From a virus, in IMG/VR virus record IMGVR_UViG_3300034012_001318, positions 1 through 20,194 of that record: a DNA stretch of 20,194 nt; one strand, written 5' to 3'. The notes under the pieces were generated by a model, which did no database searches, was not told the DNA's origin, and saw only the letters and a list, made by a program, of their open reading frames with translations. Shown here piece after piece: positions 272 to 11,472 of this stretch (positions within the stretch are counted from its first letter, which is position 1; every line of letters starts with the position of its first letter). Position numbers and translations under genes: made by a program.

Positions 272-607
272 TTAGAACGGCAGATCGTCGTCAGTGTGAC
301 CTGATCCTGGTGTGCTAGGCGCTACGTTAGCTGCACCCGTTACTGCAAATCCCTCAATAGTGTTGAAGTACTTGACATCACCCTGTGGACTAGTCCACTC
401 ACGACCTTTCAAGCTGAACGACACCTCAGTCTCCTGGCCCTCAGCCAAGTTGTCAAGAAGTGCACACTTGTCCTTAACAAATGTGAAAGAAATAAATTGC
501 GGATACTGATCAGCAGCATCAGTTAATACTAGTTCGCGCTTGCTGAACTTTTCGGAGATTACCTCCACATTGCCTACCTTGTAGACAATTCCTCTGAATT
601 TAAACAT
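272..607 (-). CDS. Single-stranded DNA-binding protein, DUF3127-like
   Basis: A 111-aa protein starting MFKFRGIVYKVGNVEVISEK. It is followed by KFSKRELVLTD, a QFISFTFVKDK strand, an EVSFSLKGREW segment and an acidic tail ending DDDLPF. This matches the DUF3127 family, short OB-fold proteins of Bacteroidetes and their phages, and the tail is the typical SSB C-terminus used to recruit partner proteins. It would coat single-stranded DNA during phage replication or recombination. The frame stays open 14 codons upstream, but the start at 605-607 was chosen because family members begin at this MFKF-like strand and the leader TTTTAATTATCTAT is the A/T-rich type found elsewhere here. It lies near the PD-(D/E)XK nuclease in what looks like a recombination or replication set. 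Confidence 0.85.
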   Translation of the reverse strand: MFKFRGIVYKVGNVEVISEKFSKRELVLTDAADQYPQFISFTFVKDKCALLDNLAEGQETEVSFSLKGREWTSPQGDVKYFNTIEGFAVTGAANVAPSTPGSGHTDDDLPF

Positions 608-615
608 ATAGATAA

Positions 616-876
616 TTAAAAGATTACTAAAATAATTGTGACAATACATATTATTGCCACTGCAATACCTAATAAATAATTTTCAGTATTGTCTTCTACA
701 GCCTCTAAAAAGTAGATATGGTCCTGGATTACCTCAACCTCATCTGCATAGAAGTATAACTCATCAGTACCTACATTAACTAGGTAACCATAGTTATGTC
801 GCTTGGCCTCGTAGATCTTACCGACCTCGTCATGACGTAAGCCATAGCCGCCATCTGTTAACAACCGGACTCTCAT
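616..876 (-). CDS. Hypothetical protein with C-terminal membrane segment
   Basis: An 86-aa protein of unknown function. Residues 1-65 are polar with a probable small beta fold (MRVRLLTDGGYGLRHDEVGKIY then LVNVGTDELYFYADEVEVI). Residues 68-86 (LLGIAVAIICIVTIILVIF) form one hydrophobic helix at the extreme C-terminus, so it is probably a tail-anchored inner-membrane protein with the soluble part in the cytoplasm. The ATG overlaps the stop of the upstream nuclease gene as ATGA, pointing to translational coupling. The beta part resembles short phage proteins that bring a small SH3-like fold, but I cannot assign a role. Confidence 0.75.
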   Translation of the reverse strand: MRVRLLTDGGYGLRHDEVGKIYEAKRHNYGYLVNVGTDELYFYADEVEVIQDHIYFLEAVEDNTENYLLGIAVAIICIVTIILVIF

Positions 877-4464: not shown

Positions 4465-4893
4465 TTAGATTTGTCCTAGGTCAGCTAATGATGTGTAAGC
4501 TGAAGTTGGGGTTAATATAATACTGTCTAATAGGTTGATGTCTAGCAATTTAAGTCCTTTCTTTAGTTTTCTACTGAGGGCAATGTCCTCAGGGGATGGG
4601 TCAGGGTTTCCTGACGGATGATTGTGACAAAAGATTACACCGCTCGCTAGGCTGTCAACAGCATACTTCGCGACTATCTTTGAGTCAACATATGTTCCTG
4701 CAATACCACCTTGGCTGATCTTGGCGTAGCCGATTGTTTTGTTTTGCCGATTGAGTAATAAAATGAACGCGCTCTCGAATACCTCGATGTCATCACCGTA
4801 AAATTGACGGATAAATTGTTGCGCTTCATTTGATGTTGTTATCTTCTCTGTTGGGAAGTCTGACTGGATTTTCTTTAACTCGAATAATTTCAT
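4465..4893 (-). CDS. radC: RadC-like JAB/JAMM-domain protein
   Basis: A 142-aa protein with the JAMM metalloprotease-type signature of the RadC (DUF2466) family. E40 lies in the helix FESAFILLLN, H90 and H92 are in FCHNHPSGNPDPSPED, and S100 and D103 complete the Hx(1)H...SxxD zinc site. It lacks the N-terminal helix-hairpin-helix part of chromosomal RadC, so it is the short, domain-only form frequent in phages and mobile elements. The biochemical role of RadC is unsettled. Related JAMM domains cleave isopeptide bonds. The start at 4891-4893 was chosen because homologues begin near MKLFELKKIQ. It overlaps the upstream HNH-like gene by 68 bases. Confidence 0.88.
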   Translation of the reverse strand: MKLFELKKIQSDFPTEKITTSNEAQQFIRQFYGDDIEVFESAFILLLNRQNKTIGYAKISQGGIAGTYVDSKIVAKYAVDSLASGVIFCHNHPSGNPDPSPEDIALSRKLKKGLKLLDINLLDSIILTPTSAYTSLADLGQI

Positions 4894-5149
4894 GTGGATA
4901 GATATTAGAATAGTGAAACAATGTGATGAGTTGGTATTCATCCTTTGCCGTCTTGAGCGGTGTGCGGAATTTGAGATACCAATAGGTGCCGAAGTTGTCC
5001 CATGTCATTTCATCAGTGAACTGGGATTCGAGATACATGCGGAATTTCTCTCGATTCATGCAGACTAGTTGTCTTACAGTTGAGTTTTCGTTCCATCGTT
5101 TTGCTCTGATTGATTGGTTGAGCAGTTGTCTGTACTTTGTCTTTGTCAT
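4826..5149 (-). CDS. Degenerate HNH-endonuclease-like protein
   Basis: A 107-aa protein whose backbone follows the common phage HNH endonuclease pattern: NREKFRMYLESQFTDEMTW, then DNFGTYWYL, then LFHYSNIYPHEIIRVKEN. In active members the stretch after the tryptophan reads W.IDHI.P. Here it is WYLKFRTP, so the DH pair that binds metal and activates water is missing, while the later N residues (YSN, EN) remain. It is therefore probably not a nuclease, but may keep DNA binding. The start at 5147-5149 has the leader TTTAAATATG. It overlaps radC by 68 bases and is the first gene left of the origin-like repeat region. Confidence 0.65.
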   Translation of the reverse strand: MTKTKYRQLLNQSIRAKRWNENSTVRQLVCMNREKFRMYLESQFTDEMTWDNFGTYWYLKFRTPLKTAKDEYQLITLFHYSNIYPHEIIRVKENPVRLPNREDNNIK

Positions 5150-5211
5150 ATTTAAAGGGGTTATTTTATATACAAACACTTTTTGTGTTTTTTGTAAAAT
5201 TACCCGAAAAG

Positions 5212-5554
5212 CATGACGAAATGAAGTTTTTTATGACGACTTTATTAACAATATGACGAAATTTCTGTTGATTATGACGAAATTATTTTCTGTATCCTTT
5301 AATGGGCTTTGTTTTATGACGAAATGACGACTTTTAGTCTCTTATATAAAAAATAAAAAAAAGAGTATATATATTATATATATAATAATATGATAAAATA
5401 CATATAAGTATTTTTCCCCTATAGGGGTAAAAAGTCGTCATATTGTCATTCATGCTTGATAGTCAAGCATTTAGCTTTTTTTTTCGTCATATTATGACGT
5501 TTTTTCGTCATATTTGGGGTGTTTTTCGTCATATTGGAAGACGATTTCGTCATA
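5212..5554. other. Origin-like region: inverted arms of TATGACGA repeats around an AT-rich core
   Basis: The left arm has copies of (T/C/A)ATGACGA beginning at 5212, 5232, 5252, 5273, 5315 and 5323. The right arm has the reverse complement TCGTCATA beginning at 5435, 5484, 5505, 5526 and 5547, plus a forward copy at 5493 that forms a 15-base palindrome with its neighbour. Spacing is 20-21 bp (42 for one gap) on the left and exactly 21 bp for the last four on the right, about two helical turns. Between them 5331-5415 is almost pure A/T, followed by the palindrome CCCCTATAGGGG (5416-5427) and an 8-bp hairpin ATGCTTGA/TCAAGCAT (5452-5470). Iterons next to an unwinding-prone region are typical of theta replication origins. 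A regulatory array is the alternative. Confidence 0.65.
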
Positions 5555-5604
5555 TTGGCTGGCTGTAAGCCTGCTAAGATTGAAAGTTGGTCAATTGTGT
5601 ACAT
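5446..5604 (-). CDS. Possible 52-aa protein built of NMTK heptad repeats, inside the repeat array
   Basis: An open frame from an ATG at 5602-5604. It starts MYTIDQLSILAGLQPANMTK, then three more NMTK units at seven-residue steps, and ends in a lysine-rich tail. The N-terminus resembles the first helices of a helix-turn-helix. The 21-bp DNA repeats of the right arm of the origin-like region are exactly the four codons AAT ATG ACG AAA, identical at wobble positions in all four copies. The start overlaps the stop of the upstream small gene by 14 bases. It may be a real gene with the array inside it, as in lambda gene O, or the frame may simply be open because 21 is a multiple of three. Confidence 0.4.
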   Translation of the reverse strand: MYTIDQLSILAGLQPANMTKSSSNMTKNTPNMTKKRHNMTKKKAKCLTIKHE

Positions 5605-5719
5605 ATTCTTTAAAGTAATATGCTACGAGCTCTCGTAGCGTTAAACGATTAGTGTATTGACTGCATTGCGTGGCGTAGAAGCCATTGATGATTGTGACAT
5701 CGGCAATCCATTCTTTCAT
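5591..5719 (-). CDS. Small hypothetical protein (42 aa)
   Basis: A 42-aa frame starting MKEWIADVTIINGFYATQCS and ending FKEYVHN, with a helix-like LTLRELVAYYF. It is too short for standard gene calling. The evidence for it is the ATGA overlap between its start and the stop of the 89-aa gene upstream, a junction that recurs at several gene borders nearby. Function unknown. Confidence 0.55.
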   Translation of the reverse strand: MKEWIADVTIINGFYATQCSQYTNRLTLRELVAYYFKEYVHN

Positions 5720-5985
5720 TCGGCACAAAGTTCCCATGGTTGTAAATTTTTAAAGTTGATCGAGTATTCAGACTTTAAGGTCTGAACAATAAACCTAGCG
5801 AGCGCCTTGTTGGTCTTTTCTTTTGATAGGTCGTTGTCTCCGATTGCTTGGACGACCTCTCGTGGTAGCATCTGGAGAACCCGGGTGCAGAACTTTACGT
5901 CTTGGCCTAGGTAGTATGACTTGTTTCGATAGACTAGCGTCCAATAGTGCGCAAATCCGTATTGGTGTGTTATTTCAATTCTCAT
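5716..5985 (-). CDS. Hypothetical protein (89 aa)
   Basis: A protein starting MRIEITHQYGFAHYWTLVYR, then NKSYYLGQDVKFCTRVLQML and a helical C-terminal part (NKALARFIVQTLKSEYSINF). The beta-rich first half followed by helices is seen, but no family was recognised. Both ends are joined to neighbours by ATGA overlaps, so it is translated within the chain of small leftward genes. Confidence 0.7.
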   Translation of the reverse strand: MRIEITHQYGFAHYWTLVYRNKSYYLGQDVKFCTRVLQMLPREVVQAIGDNDLSKEKTNKALARFIVQTLKSEYSINFKNLQPWELCAE

Positions 5986-6131
5986 GACTTAATTATAAAT
6001 ACTTGGTTAGACATTGGGCACTGAACTGCAATTGTGGTTTCAGTTACATTGCCGATTACTTTGTATTCTCCCGTTAGGACGAACTGACGACCGCTCACAA
6101 TGAGGGTTTCTCGGTTGGATAGCTTTATCAT
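5982..6131 (-). CDS. Small hypothetical beta-rich protein (49 aa)
   Basis: Starts MIKLSNRETLIVSGRQFVLT and continues GEYKVIGNVTETTIAVQ. The alternating hydrophobic pattern suggests a short beta barrel or sheet. The stop overlaps the ATG of the 89-aa gene as ATGA, and its own ATG overlaps the stop of the next gene upstream in the same way. These two junctions are the main support. Function unknown. Confidence 0.6.
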   Translation of the reverse strand: MIKLSNRETLIVSGRQFVLTGEYKVIGNVTETTIAVQCPMSNQVFIIKS

Positions 6132-9214: not shown

Positions 9215-10783
9215 ATGGTAGTAAAACATGTACATTTAGGCGACGAAGGTCGCCAAAAGCTCATTAAAGGCATCAAAACGATCGCTGGAGCAGTAAAAAG
9301 CACACTCGGTGCGCGAGGACGGACAGTCCTAATTGAATCAGAGCATCACGTTGGTGGTATTACAGTCACAAAGGACGGTGTGACGGTCGCTAAGTCGATC
9401 AACCTCTATGACCCGGTTGAGAACTTGGCCGTCATGATGATGCGACAGGCTGCTGAGAAGACGGCTACTGTTGCTGGTGATGGTACAACCACGTCAATCG
9501 TGATCGCTGAGGCTATTGTGGATGCAGCATCTGACGTTTTAACGTCAGACGACAACGTAACCGAGGTCATCCGTGAGATTAATAGCATTACGACAGATGT
9601 CGTGAACCATCTGACCAAACGAGCCAAAAAGCTCTCAGGTAAGAAGCTAAAGGACGTGGCGTCTATCAGTGCCAACAATGACACCACTATTGGTGGTATG
9701 ATCGCTGACGCGTTCAGTGAGGTCAAGATGGTATCTGTTGAGAACAGTAAGGACCACAACACGTATGTTGAGGTGATCAAGGGGATTAAAGCTGACCGAG
9801 GTTGGACTAGTCGCCACTTCATCACTGACTACAAGCGCCAGGAGGCTATCCTAGAGAACCCATACGTCTTAATCACTGACCAAGAGATCAACAACCTACT
9901 CAACATTGAGAAGGTCCTACAGCATGTTGTAGCGCAAAATAAGTCACTACTCATCATCGGCGAGATGACTCCTGCTGCTTTGAACACCCTTAATATAAAC
10001 GTAGCTCAAGGCAAAATCAAGGCTTGCCATATCATGCCGCCAAGCTTTGGCTACCGTCAGAAAGACTTGCTTGAAGACCTAGCAATCGTATTGGACGGCA
10101 CATACTTTAGTGAGGACACTGGTGATGACCTATCTCTTATTGACGTGGCGCATCTTGGTCGTTGCGCTAAGGTGATCGTTGGTAAGGACAATACGATCTT
10201 TATGCCCTATGCTAGCTCTCAAGATAGCATAGACGCCCGCATTGCCGATATTAATGAGACAATCTTCGAAGGCATAACAAAAGAAGAGCTTGACAACCGC
10301 AAAGAGCGGGCAGCCAACCTATCGGGTGGTGTTGCTGTGATACACGTTGGAGCGCTCAGTGACATTGAGCAGAAGGAGAAGCGCGACCGCATCGATGACG
10401 CTGTCTGCGCTGTTGAGGCTGCATTAGAGGACGGCATTCTTCCTGGTGGTGGTGTTGCCCTGTATGAGTATGCGATTACACACCTACGCGGTAAGATAGG
10501 TGCTGCTGAGCAAATTATGTTCAGAGCCATAACAGCTCCAATGTGGCAAATACTTGTGAACGCTGGCAAAGACGCTCAAGAGATCATGGACGGCATCCTA
10601 CCGTTCCCTAACGAGGGCTATGACGTCAAAGGTGAGCAGTATGGTGACATGATCAAGCTTGGTATCATTGACCCGGCTAAAGTCACTAAAAACGCTTTAT
10701 TGAACGCTGTGTCGGTAGCTACGACGATCATGAGCACAAACGCAATCATTACAAATATCAGAGCAGATGAAAGTATTAAATAA
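9215..10783 (+). CDS. groEL: Chaperonin GroEL (Cpn60)
   Basis: A 522-aa group I chaperonin subunit, which forms ATP-driven rings that enclose and fold proteins. It aligns over its whole length with bacterial GroEL. Seen motifs are KSTLGARGRTV near the N-terminus, TVTKDGVTV (the Asp matching D52), AGDGTTTS with D89 (D87 of E. coli), DDAVCA with D395 (D398, needed for ATP hydrolysis), and PGGGVALYEY. The apical domain is present at about 190-370 and GIKADRGW to FITDYK replaces the usual RGYLSPYF. The C-terminus ends NIRADESIK without the GGM tail. All catalytic residues are kept, so it is probably active and folds virion proteins. The groES gene follows, overlapping by 17 bases. Confidence 0.97.
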   Translation: MVVKHVHLGDEGRQKLIKGIKTIAGAVKSTLGARGRTVLIESEHHVGGITVTKDGVTVAKSINLYDPVENLAVMMMRQAAEKTATVAGDGTTTSIVIAEAIVDAASDVLTSDDNVTEVIREINSITTDVVNHLTKRAKKLSGKKLKDVASISANNDTTIGGMIADAFSEVKMVSVENSKDHNTYVEVIKGIKADRGWTSRHFITDYKRQEAILENPYVLITDQEINNLLNIEKVLQHVVAQNKSLLIIGEMTPAALNTLNINVAQGKIKACHIMPPSFGYRQKDLLEDLAIVLDGTYFSEDTGDDLSLIDVAHLGRCAKVIVGKDNTIFMPYASSQDSIDARIADINETIFEGITKEELDNRKERAANLSGGVAVIHVGALSDIEQKEKRDRIDDAVCAVEAALEDGILPGGGVALYEYAITHLRGKIGAAEQIMFRAITAPMWQILVNAGKDAQEIMDGILPFPNEGYDVKGEQYGDMIKLGIIDPAKVTKNALLNAVSVATTIMSTNAIITNIRADESIK

Positions 10784-11027
10784 GTTCTTACTCGTAAAGA
10801 AAGTAGCTGAGCAAAAGCAGACCAAGAGTGGTCTACTCTTAACCGGTGAGGATTCTAATGATATGCGGTATTATAAGGCCGTAGTACACTCTGTGGGAGA
10901 CAATATCACTGGTATAAATACCAGCGATACAATACTTTACGACAAAGTGCAAAGCCATGAGATCATCCTTGATAATGAAAGGATGACTATAATTCAGGAG
11001 AGGGACGTTGTTTGCGTCTTCGATTAA
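10767..11027 (+). CDS. groES: Co-chaperonin GroES
   Basis: An 86-aa co-chaperonin that would cap the GroEL ring. The start MKVLNKFLLVKKVAEQKQTK has the first beta strand of the family. The mobile loop reads TKSGLLLTGEDSND, where LLL takes the place of the GroEL-binding IVL tripeptide of E. coli GroES. Then come KAVVHSVGDN (the VLAVG strand), SDTILYDK and a final strand RDVVCVFD. It lacks part of the roof loop, which shortens it from the usual 95-97 residues. The start codon is inside groEL, so translation is coupled. The order groEL-groES is the reverse of the usual bacterial operon. Its last 41 bases overlap an opposing gene. Confidence 0.9.
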   Translation: MKVLNKFLLVKKVAEQKQTKSGLLLTGEDSNDMRYYKAVVHSVGDNITGINTSDTILYDKVQSHEIILDNERMTIIQERDVVCVFD

Positions 11028-11472
11028 AATCTGTTATCGCAATAGCTAAGGTCTTTTGATGAAACGGTGCGTTTTTTCGGAAGGCCTTATTGCGTCTTGA
11101 TGACGTCGGAATCGGTTCTTCTCCGATTAACTTCTTATAAATTGACGTAATCATTTTCTTGGCCTTAAATGACACCTCATACAGTTGGCCTTCGTTGTAA
11201 TTTTTCTGTCGCCATTCTGCTATCCATCCCTCTTTCAACAATCTGTTGAAGCGCTGGCTGTCCCAAGTCATGAAGTTCTTGTATTCGTCAAAGTCTGACT
11301 TTCTGAACAGCCTGTTGCCATGTAAAAAGAACAGCATCTCAAGATCTGAGAGCCTAATTCCATAGTTCACTTGAGCCCATCGTCTTACGATTGCCCACTC
11401 TGTAAGAAAGTCATACTTCAGCGGTTCTCGCTTTACTATCCTTTCGTAGATGATTGTTTTTCTAACTTTCAT
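10987..11472 (-). CDS. Winged-helix-like DNA-binding protein, candidate regulator
   Basis: A 161-aa basic protein on the opposite strand to all its neighbours. Residues about 40-120 (LSDLEMLFFLHGNRLF, DEYKNFMTWDSQRFNRLLKE, GWIAEWR, then LYEVSFKAKKMITSIYKKL) follow the plan of MarR-type winged helices: helix, recognition helix with a short turn, wing. A basic tail (RRNKAFRKN, RRRKQRPS) ends it. DNA binding is likely; the target is inferred. Its 3' end overlaps groES by 41 bases in a convergent arrangement with no terminator between. Its promoter is a perfect palindrome sharing a core with the groEL promoter, which suggests autoregulation and control of the chaperonins. Similar proteins occur in other Bacteroidetes phages without assigned function. 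Confidence 0.7.
   Translation of the reverse strand: MKVRKTIIYERIVKREPLKYDFLTEWAIVRRWAQVNYGIRLSDLEMLFFLHGNRLFRKSDFDEYKNFMTWDSQRFNRLLKEGWIAEWRQKNYNEGQLYEVSFKAKKMITSIYKKLIGEEPIPTSSRRNKAFRKNAPFHQKTLAIAITDFNRRRKQRPSPEL

Follow-up and report, generated by a model that had tools for sequence, protein, structure and literature searches.

The Rep protein of SaPI5, one of the Staphylococcus aureus pathogenicity islands (SaPIs) in the class of phage-inducible chromosomal islands (PICIs), is described as having primase and helicase domains, and SaPI origins as sets of iterons directly downstream of rep that are read by the C-terminal domain of Rep, apparently by two hexamers (PMC7581432). According to the same source, Cch2 of SCCmec is a D5-type helicase, and its C-terminal domain on its own binds a putative origin of three iterons, which are short direct repeats beside the gene and downstream of it (PMC7581432). 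The alpha protein of P4 is described as a fused primase-helicase (PMC7145576), and its origin-binding domain as a winged helix (PMC10516667). We analyzed an element at positions 5212-5554 of a viral DNA fragment, IMG/VR record IMGVR_UViG_3300034012_001318 (20,194 bases; "the window" below is this whole stretch). We read the element as a phage replication origin whose words are bound by a phage primase-superfamily 3 (SF3) helicase of the D5 type, and give this reading a probability of about 0.72. No description of the element was recognized in searches of open-licence papers. By analogy, it may work as the SaPI and P4 origins do without belonging to either group, given its place in a whole phage, its upstream position, and its inverted paired sites.

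The element consists of two inverted, helically phased arms of short words around the least stable DNA of the window. A first-pass annotation, made from the sequence alone, had proposed an origin here with at least 11 copies of an eight-base word in two opposite arms. A word scan of the window found nine exact copies of TATGACGA, at 5232, 5252, 5273, and 5315 on the plus strand and at 5435, 5484, 5505, 5526, and 5547 on the minus strand, and two one-mismatch copies in the correct orientation, at 5212 and 5323, which together give the 11 copies claimed. The measured spacings are 20, 20, 21, 42, and 8 bp in the left arm; in the right arm they are 8 bp within the inner pair, 49 bp from 5435 to 5484, and then 21, 21, and 21 bp. 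They match the earlier figures of 20-21 or 42 bp on the left and 21 bp for four copies on the right. The left outer arm (5212-5280, plus strand) holds the words at 5212, where the first base is C for T, 5232, 5252, and 5273, and the left inner pair (5315-5330, plus strand) is TATGACGA plus AATGACGA at an 8-bp offset, followed by CTTTT. The right inner pair (5435-5450, minus strand) mirrors it. Both of these predicted mirror-image pairs are present, but the partner word at 5443, AATGACAA, has two mismatches and is weaker than the other inner words. The right outer arm (5484-5554, minus strand) contains the remaining four words, and a near-copy in the wrong orientation, TATGACGT, lies within it on the plus strand at 5493.

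Between the inner pairs is the A/T-rich core (5331-5416), the presumed unwinding element, which is made up of TATA tracts and an A-run that is a T-run on the helicase-sense strand. The core had been called nearly pure A/T over about 85 bases. An A/T-rich core does exist, but its best 85-mer (5332-5416) is 89% A/T and its best 50-mer is 96%. A duplex-stability profile had been suggested as a check on the origin proposal, and its minimum falls on the element in both the window and the near relative G001, with the core being the least stable 80-mer of each (z 4.8 and 4.7, respectively). In 200 dinucleotide shuffles of the window, counting 7-mers with at least two G/C bases, no 7-mer reached 11 copies in 343 bp (the largest count was 6 and the mean 3.6), and the word cluster is thus far above chance. 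Iteron plasmid and DnaA-type origins also have repeated words beside an A/T-rich unwinding element, with RepA- or DnaA-type initiators. The element shares with them the repeated words next to an A/T-rich stretch, but its words flank the core on both sides, and the window contains no DnaA box (searched as TTATNCACA). A search of positions 4900-6000 against Rfam gave two matches, both far under the gathering scores and taken as chance.

The regular right arm could also be a coding repeat, with the left arm present by chance, because an open reading frame (ORF) with NMTK heptads at 5446-5604 stays open through the four 21-bp units, each seven codons long, in both the window and G001. In G003, the words of the right arm are 20 bp apart and the frame contains stops, so the right arm is not a protein repeat. 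The linkers between words differ among relatives, and the left arm is inverted and also phased. A coding repeat is barely credible as an explanation of the element.

The first-pass annotation noted that no recognized replication initiator is in the window. This is true, but only because the window is a 20-kb fragment that ends before the relevant genes. The relative G001 has 65,113 bases and is probably complete, because its ends overlap by 128 bases at 99% identity. It has the same element and, about 6 kb away, a primase-SF3 helicase gene (gene 23), so that repeated words around an easily melted A/T stretch and a primase-helicase, as looked for in an SF3/D5-type origin, occur in one replicon. 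Past the equivalent of the left end of the window, G001 encodes a 777-residue protein with BT4734-like_N and DUF5906 matches, in which we take the GGTGKG, DD, and ITTNY segments to be SF3-type helicase motifs. The same region contains a helicase gene with intein-type segments, a nuclease of the VRR type, and a small protein with a weak likeness to DnaA domain IV.

In the near branch of relatives, the helicase gene is about 4.8-9.8 kb downstream of the element. In six loci of a distant branch (L106, L108, L122, L125, L126, and L127), the element is centered about 90-121 bp before the start of the primase-helicase gene. The same placement is found in MW202828.1 ("Podoviridae sp. isolate ctfjg026, complete genome"), which is circular, measures 60.8 kb, and has annotations for groEL, portal, terminase, and structural proteins; its gene order is a single-stranded DNA-binding protein (SSB)-like gene, the element, and the primase-helicase. 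The short protein preceding the element there ends in DDVPF and resembles the DUF3127 protein of the window; it was not matched by tblastn. This adjacency in the distant branch is the strongest pointer to the initiator. A hypothetical coding sequence (CDS) annotated across the element of MW202828.1, at 53503-53628, is probably spurious.

The position of the element separates it from the SaPI origins, which are downstream of rep; the present element is either about 4.8-9.8 kb or about 100 bp upstream, and it stands upstream of the helicase gene in all 17 loci with an orientation score of at least 8 and in the adjacent branch. SaPIs are helper-dependent satellites, whereas the element occurs in whole phages, namely MW202828.1 and G001, which share late genes. 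A further difference is that the present sites are arranged in two phased arms of opposite orientation, including an inner pair at an 8-bp offset; inverted arms, the conserved feature of this element, also distinguish it from the putative Cch2 origin.

The same surroundings could suit a transcription control region, in which phased operators of a phage regulator would surround an A/T-rich promoter. The element is between co-directional genes, and in the distant branch its place directly upstream of the helicase gene could allow it to govern expression. A conserved small protein (window 10987-11472, G001 gene 47), which was read as winged-helix/MarR-like, could be the reader, and a gene beside groES in the corresponding place in MW202828.1 is annotated "repressor protein"; gene 47 matched no Pfam family, and its PHROG has no function. 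The downstream gene, however, differs between the near and distant branches, and ATGACGA clusters solely at the element, with 11 of its 14 occurrences in the window and 11 of 18 in G001 located there. A scan confined to sigma-70-type promoters gave 2 hits versus 3.7 in shuffles. Nor does gene 47 follow the word: its protein is 62% identical in G017, which has the same word, and 65% in G016, which has another. We consider transcription control an unlikely function for the element.

Relatives of the gene adjoining the element led to 11 loci, some of them near-identical, and the element was seen in all 11, with extra genes in between in L019. L021 (contig G012) has the element without its A/T core; at L021:10300-10570, ATGACGA words stand in both orientations with no A/T-rich DNA between them, which reflects either a true loss or an assembly collapse. 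A search with the helicase found a relative encoded in 416 of 500 matched stretches, and 80 loci were kept, many of them too short upstream to contain the element. In 11 of the 80, inverted pairs with the 8-bp offset flank an A/T core, as the strict pattern demands. An orientation score of at least 8 was reached by 17 of the 80 (including the near-identical pairs L048/L049, L063/L064, and L086/L087), compared with 2 of 80 in a reversed-orientation control, these being L068, which scored beside its own element, and L114. In 28 loci, the sequence upstream of the helicase gene extends for at least 6.9 kb; the element is present in 20 of these, as judged by eye. A search of related phages had been suggested as a check, and it showed that the inverted layout around the A/T core is kept while the word itself varies.

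Several candidates were set aside. Three loci from a pattern scan are unrelated, with L005 having no cluster and L008 and L010 only tandem repeats of the same orientation, and detector sites in G024, L109 (5485), and L115 were dropped as spurious on reading. A scan of genome contigs with the helicase alignment gave 273 pattern matches, none of them a relative. Flavobacterium phage elemoF_6-3D and Maribacter phage Panino, both with a partial primase/helicase match, have no such element at the three A/T peaks inspected in the first 30 kb of each.

The 12-base palindrome and the hairpin reported by the first-pass annotation are both present, but neither is kept outside the branch of the window, and they are lineage-specific extras. 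The palindrome, CCCCTATAGGGG (5416-5427), is degenerate or absent in other branches. The hairpin, ATGCTTGA-TAG-TCAAGCAT (5452-5470), lies between the right inner pair and the outer arm. A stable hairpin in this place was found in five of six ATGACGA-type relatives folded (L048, L055, L058, L012, and L014, not L072); L048 and L055 share the stem of the window, and the others have different stems, making at least three stem sequences. The nine folded elements with other words (L063, L066, L068, L071, L078, L084, L086, L107, and L116) gave 0 to -5.7 kcal/mol, compared with -8.5 to -14.2 kcal/mol in the five, all as RNA energies. On the plus strand of the window the hairpin is terminator-like, but a general terminator role was rejected, since the following T-run is not seen in L012 or L058. 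We also rejected CTGATNATCAG palindromes as a general part of the element: they lie within about 130 bases of it in G006, G016, G018, and G019 (element at about 39,500) and are elsewhere or absent in other contigs.

The word spacings keep to a single helical face. We found a period of about 10.5 bp in 121 spacings of 10-70 bp between words of the same arm, taken from 23 elements (with the near-duplicates L062, L118, and L015 left out, and the rest still related, which inflates the counts). R was 0.73 at 10.5 bp and 0.74 at 10.75 bp, and 0.68-0.74 over the range from 10.25 to 11 bp, against a maximum of 0.29 in 2,000 null draws. The 8-bp offset occurs 30 times in these 23 elements.

Within an element, the word has changed at almost every site in concert. 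Counted with the pattern [AG]TG[AT][CT][AG], six elements of the TGA type (ATGACGA) have 11-13 words of their own type and 0-1 of the other, and 14 elements of the TGT type (ATGTYRA) have 9-16 and 0-3, respectively. Seven helicase-adjacent or distant elements are of the TGT type or mixed (L106 and L108, each 4:4); L127 is absent from the word table. Such a concerted change is as expected if one protein reads all of the sites.

Taken with the stability minimum, the kept inverted layout, and the helicase adjacency in distant relatives, the phasing and the concerted word change support the proposal of a replication origin, a function that we infer from comparison of sequences. We then compared the genes of G001 with those of ten other large contigs for a protein that follows the word. 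The primase-helicase, the helicase of genes 19/20, and the nuclease gene 17, which are leftward, early genes of G001, were matched in all ten, as were many late genes, while the exonuclease gene 29, gene 30, and DUF3127 were matched in seven. In G017, which has the word of the window, the helicase is 95% identical, the DUF3127 protein 70%, and the gene-47 protein 62%; in G010 and G016, which have another word, the helicases are 74-75% identical and the DUF3127 proteins 85-88%. By these identities, the primase-helicase tracks the word.

A different origin mechanism would have the word read by the DnaA-domain-IV-like product of G001 gene 18, by another phage protein, or by a host factor, with the helicase recruited later. 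DnaA-type proteins are known to bind repeated words of origins, the gene 18 product is similar to Bac_DnaA_C (E 4.3e-6, under the curated cut-off), and MW202828.1 has dnaA-like gene annotations. Against such a reader, gene 18 does not track the word, with 36% identity in G006, which has the same word (a partial gene at a contig end), and 52% in G010, which has a different one. Nor does it belong to the G001 genes with matches in seven or more of the ten contigs, and the absence of the DnaA box from the window also argues against a DnaA reader. We therefore think a separate reader improbable. The gene for this DnaA-domain-IV-like protein is at L029:5092-5556 (minus strand), and the protein is strongly diverged between relatives.

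The predicted structure of the primase-helicase is compatible with the role that we propose for it. The full-length model has a mean predicted local distance difference test (pLDDT) score of 75 and a predicted template modeling (pTM) score of 0.44, and is poor in most of residues 495-624. It matches the N-termini of archaeo-eukaryotic primase (AEP)-type enzymes such as PrimPols and RepB' and D5-type helicases. Its likeness to the SaPI5 primase-helicase (7ola, Foldseek E 5.3e-4; 7om0, Z 10.2, root-mean-square deviation [rmsd] 6.9 over 328 residues) is tied with that to other D5-type enzymes and to AsfvPrimPol chains (Z 10-11); poxvirus D5/E5 chains gave Z 8-9. A profile search of Protein Data Bank sequences with the helicase gave two chance-level hits only.

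The C-terminal 110 residues, folded alone, are predicted to form a winged helix (pLDDT 90). Their best matches are winged-helix-type proteins with Z 5-6, including the RFX DNA-binding domain (1dp7, Z 5.6, rmsd 2.6 over 66 residues) and the P4 origin-binding domain (1ka8, Z 5.4, rmsd 3.3 over 73 residues), the latter no better than unrelated winged helices. For this domain, Foldseek by itself yielded nothing below E 0.001. In these models, the scores show fold, not function. Any likeness to P4 alpha would lie in the fused primase-helicase and possibly in the predicted winged helix. The P4 primase is not known to be of the archaeo-eukaryotic type, in contrast to the AEP-type matches of the present N-terminal model, and P4 needs a second cis region, crr, for replication.

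In 20 of 24 contigs, the automatically detected site and the least stable 80-mer are no more than 100 bp apart; one of the 20, G024, has a site that does not read as the element. In G018, this holds for a tied least stable 80-mer. In G019 and G020, the top detector site is elsewhere, and the element seen by reading sits at the least stable place; G012, with no core, is an exception. The detector demanded an A/T-rich center and several contigs are near-identical, so this tally is supportive rather than independent. Phased binding sites could also form a partition, packaging, or recombination site, as plasmid centromeres and packaging sites contain phased repeats too. From such a site one would not expect a stability minimum between inverted pairs or helicase adjacency in the distant branch, and no partition gene was recognized in the gene lists read, in which most proteins were not searched. 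A site of this kind seems very unlikely.

The cumulative GC skew, a further suggested check, gave a mixed answer. Its minimum is near the element, though not on it, in most near relatives; in the window it is at about 2.2 kb, some 3 kb off. In the detrended skew, the distance from the minimum to the element is 0.15 kb in G023, 0.17 kb in G015 (for its first element; 8.7 kb for its second), 1.0 kb in G019, 1.1 kb in G009, 2.8-2.9 kb in G016, G017, G001, and G002, 3.3 kb in G020, 3.5 kb in G010, 4.4 kb in G011, and 5.7 kb in G014. Gene direction also shapes GC skew. The skew is weak support for an origin in the near branch and gives none in the distant branch.

Several observations weigh against an origin read by the primase-helicase. 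The skew minimum is 10.1 kb from the element in MW202828.1, 9.3 kb in G022, and about 10 kb in G018 (if circular). G012 carries the words without the A/T core. G015 has two elements with similar words, at about 2,980 and 11,550 (8.6 kb apart), contrary to the prediction of a single-origin model; only the first is at the stability and GC-skew minima. Eight of the 28 loci with at least 6.9 kb upstream (L081, L097, L104, L110, L112, L114, L115, and L124) have no convincing element with this word. The initiator gene of the window itself is unseen, being beyond its 20 kb, and in the near branch the primase-helicase shares its tracking of the word with genes 29, 30, and 36. The pattern behind the counts of word classes was of our own choosing. 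Of 102 fixed differences in the helicase that separate the ATGACGA branch from six loci of the 73-76% branch (L060 and L069 left out of both sides), 9 fall in residues 691-777, which is no enrichment at the C-terminus, and we rejected residue-level co-variation in the presumed DNA-binding domain on this basis. The ATPase core of the helicase model is of low confidence, and the winged-helix domain matches many general regulators equally well (Z 5-6).

Two of the eight loci, L124 and L104, have an A/T peak with other short repeats alongside. In L124, the peak is at 1-330, about 10 kb upstream of the helicase gene, with direct repeats of the TCTGCCAT type; it may be an origin of this kind that uses a further word.

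If the element is an origin of the kind proposed, the primase-helicase, whose gene is outside the fragment, would bind the TATGACGA words through its C-terminal winged-helix domain. With the words on one helix face and in two inverted arms, bound subunits would assemble on either side of the A/T core, and the inner pairs, which face one another over a gap of about 100 bp of weak DNA, would position a helicase ring on each side. The core would then melt, the rings would load head to head, and the fused primase would start synthesis in both directions.

Whole-window megablast against a phage collection gave no match. The host is probably a member of the Bacteroidota, because the weak matches of the helicase fall in phages of Cellulophaga, Flavobacterium, Nonlabens, Polaribacter, Bacteroides, and others. 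The DUF3127 gene, a neighboring replication gene (272-649, minus strand), encodes a single-stranded-DNA-binding-like protein that ends in DDDLPF. A gene for a RadC-like JAB domain protein (4465-4941, minus strand, E 6.9e-32) adjoins the putative origin; among the contigs compared for gene tracking, it was matched only in the window, G002, and G004. On the other side, a 42-codon ORF at 5591-5719 (minus strand) begins at the stop of the 5716-5985 gene (MKEWIADVTIINGFYATQCSQYTNRLTLRELVAYYFKEYVHN), and similar readings occur in relatives; it is probably a small real gene between the 5716-5985 gene and the element. GroEL-like (522 residues) and GroES-like (86 residues) genes are found at 9215-11027 (plus strand), and their G001 copies were matched in nine of ten other large contigs. 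L029:5531-7750 (G001 25.5-27.8 kb) contains a conserved helicase gene with intein-splicing/HINT matches, split over two ORFs.

The element may represent an undescribed origin family with paired inverted words, phased arms, two head-to-head rings, and a specificity switch between ATGTYRA and ATGACGA that about 11 sites have followed, a proposal that we hold tentatively and at somewhat less than even odds. The replication origins of uncultured phages are short, lack annotation, and are seldom located, as illustrated by the CDS drawn over the element of MW202828.1. If the assignment holds, it would provide a recognizable origin signature for a large group of environmental phages, that of the 416 stretches with a helicase relative, and would suggest a function for phrog_28855, which is listed as unknown in PHROGs. 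The concerted site change makes the co-evolution of initiator and origin testable, and if the proposed family is real, these phages would hold a natural record of that co-evolution in a replicon with one protein and one 340-bp site.
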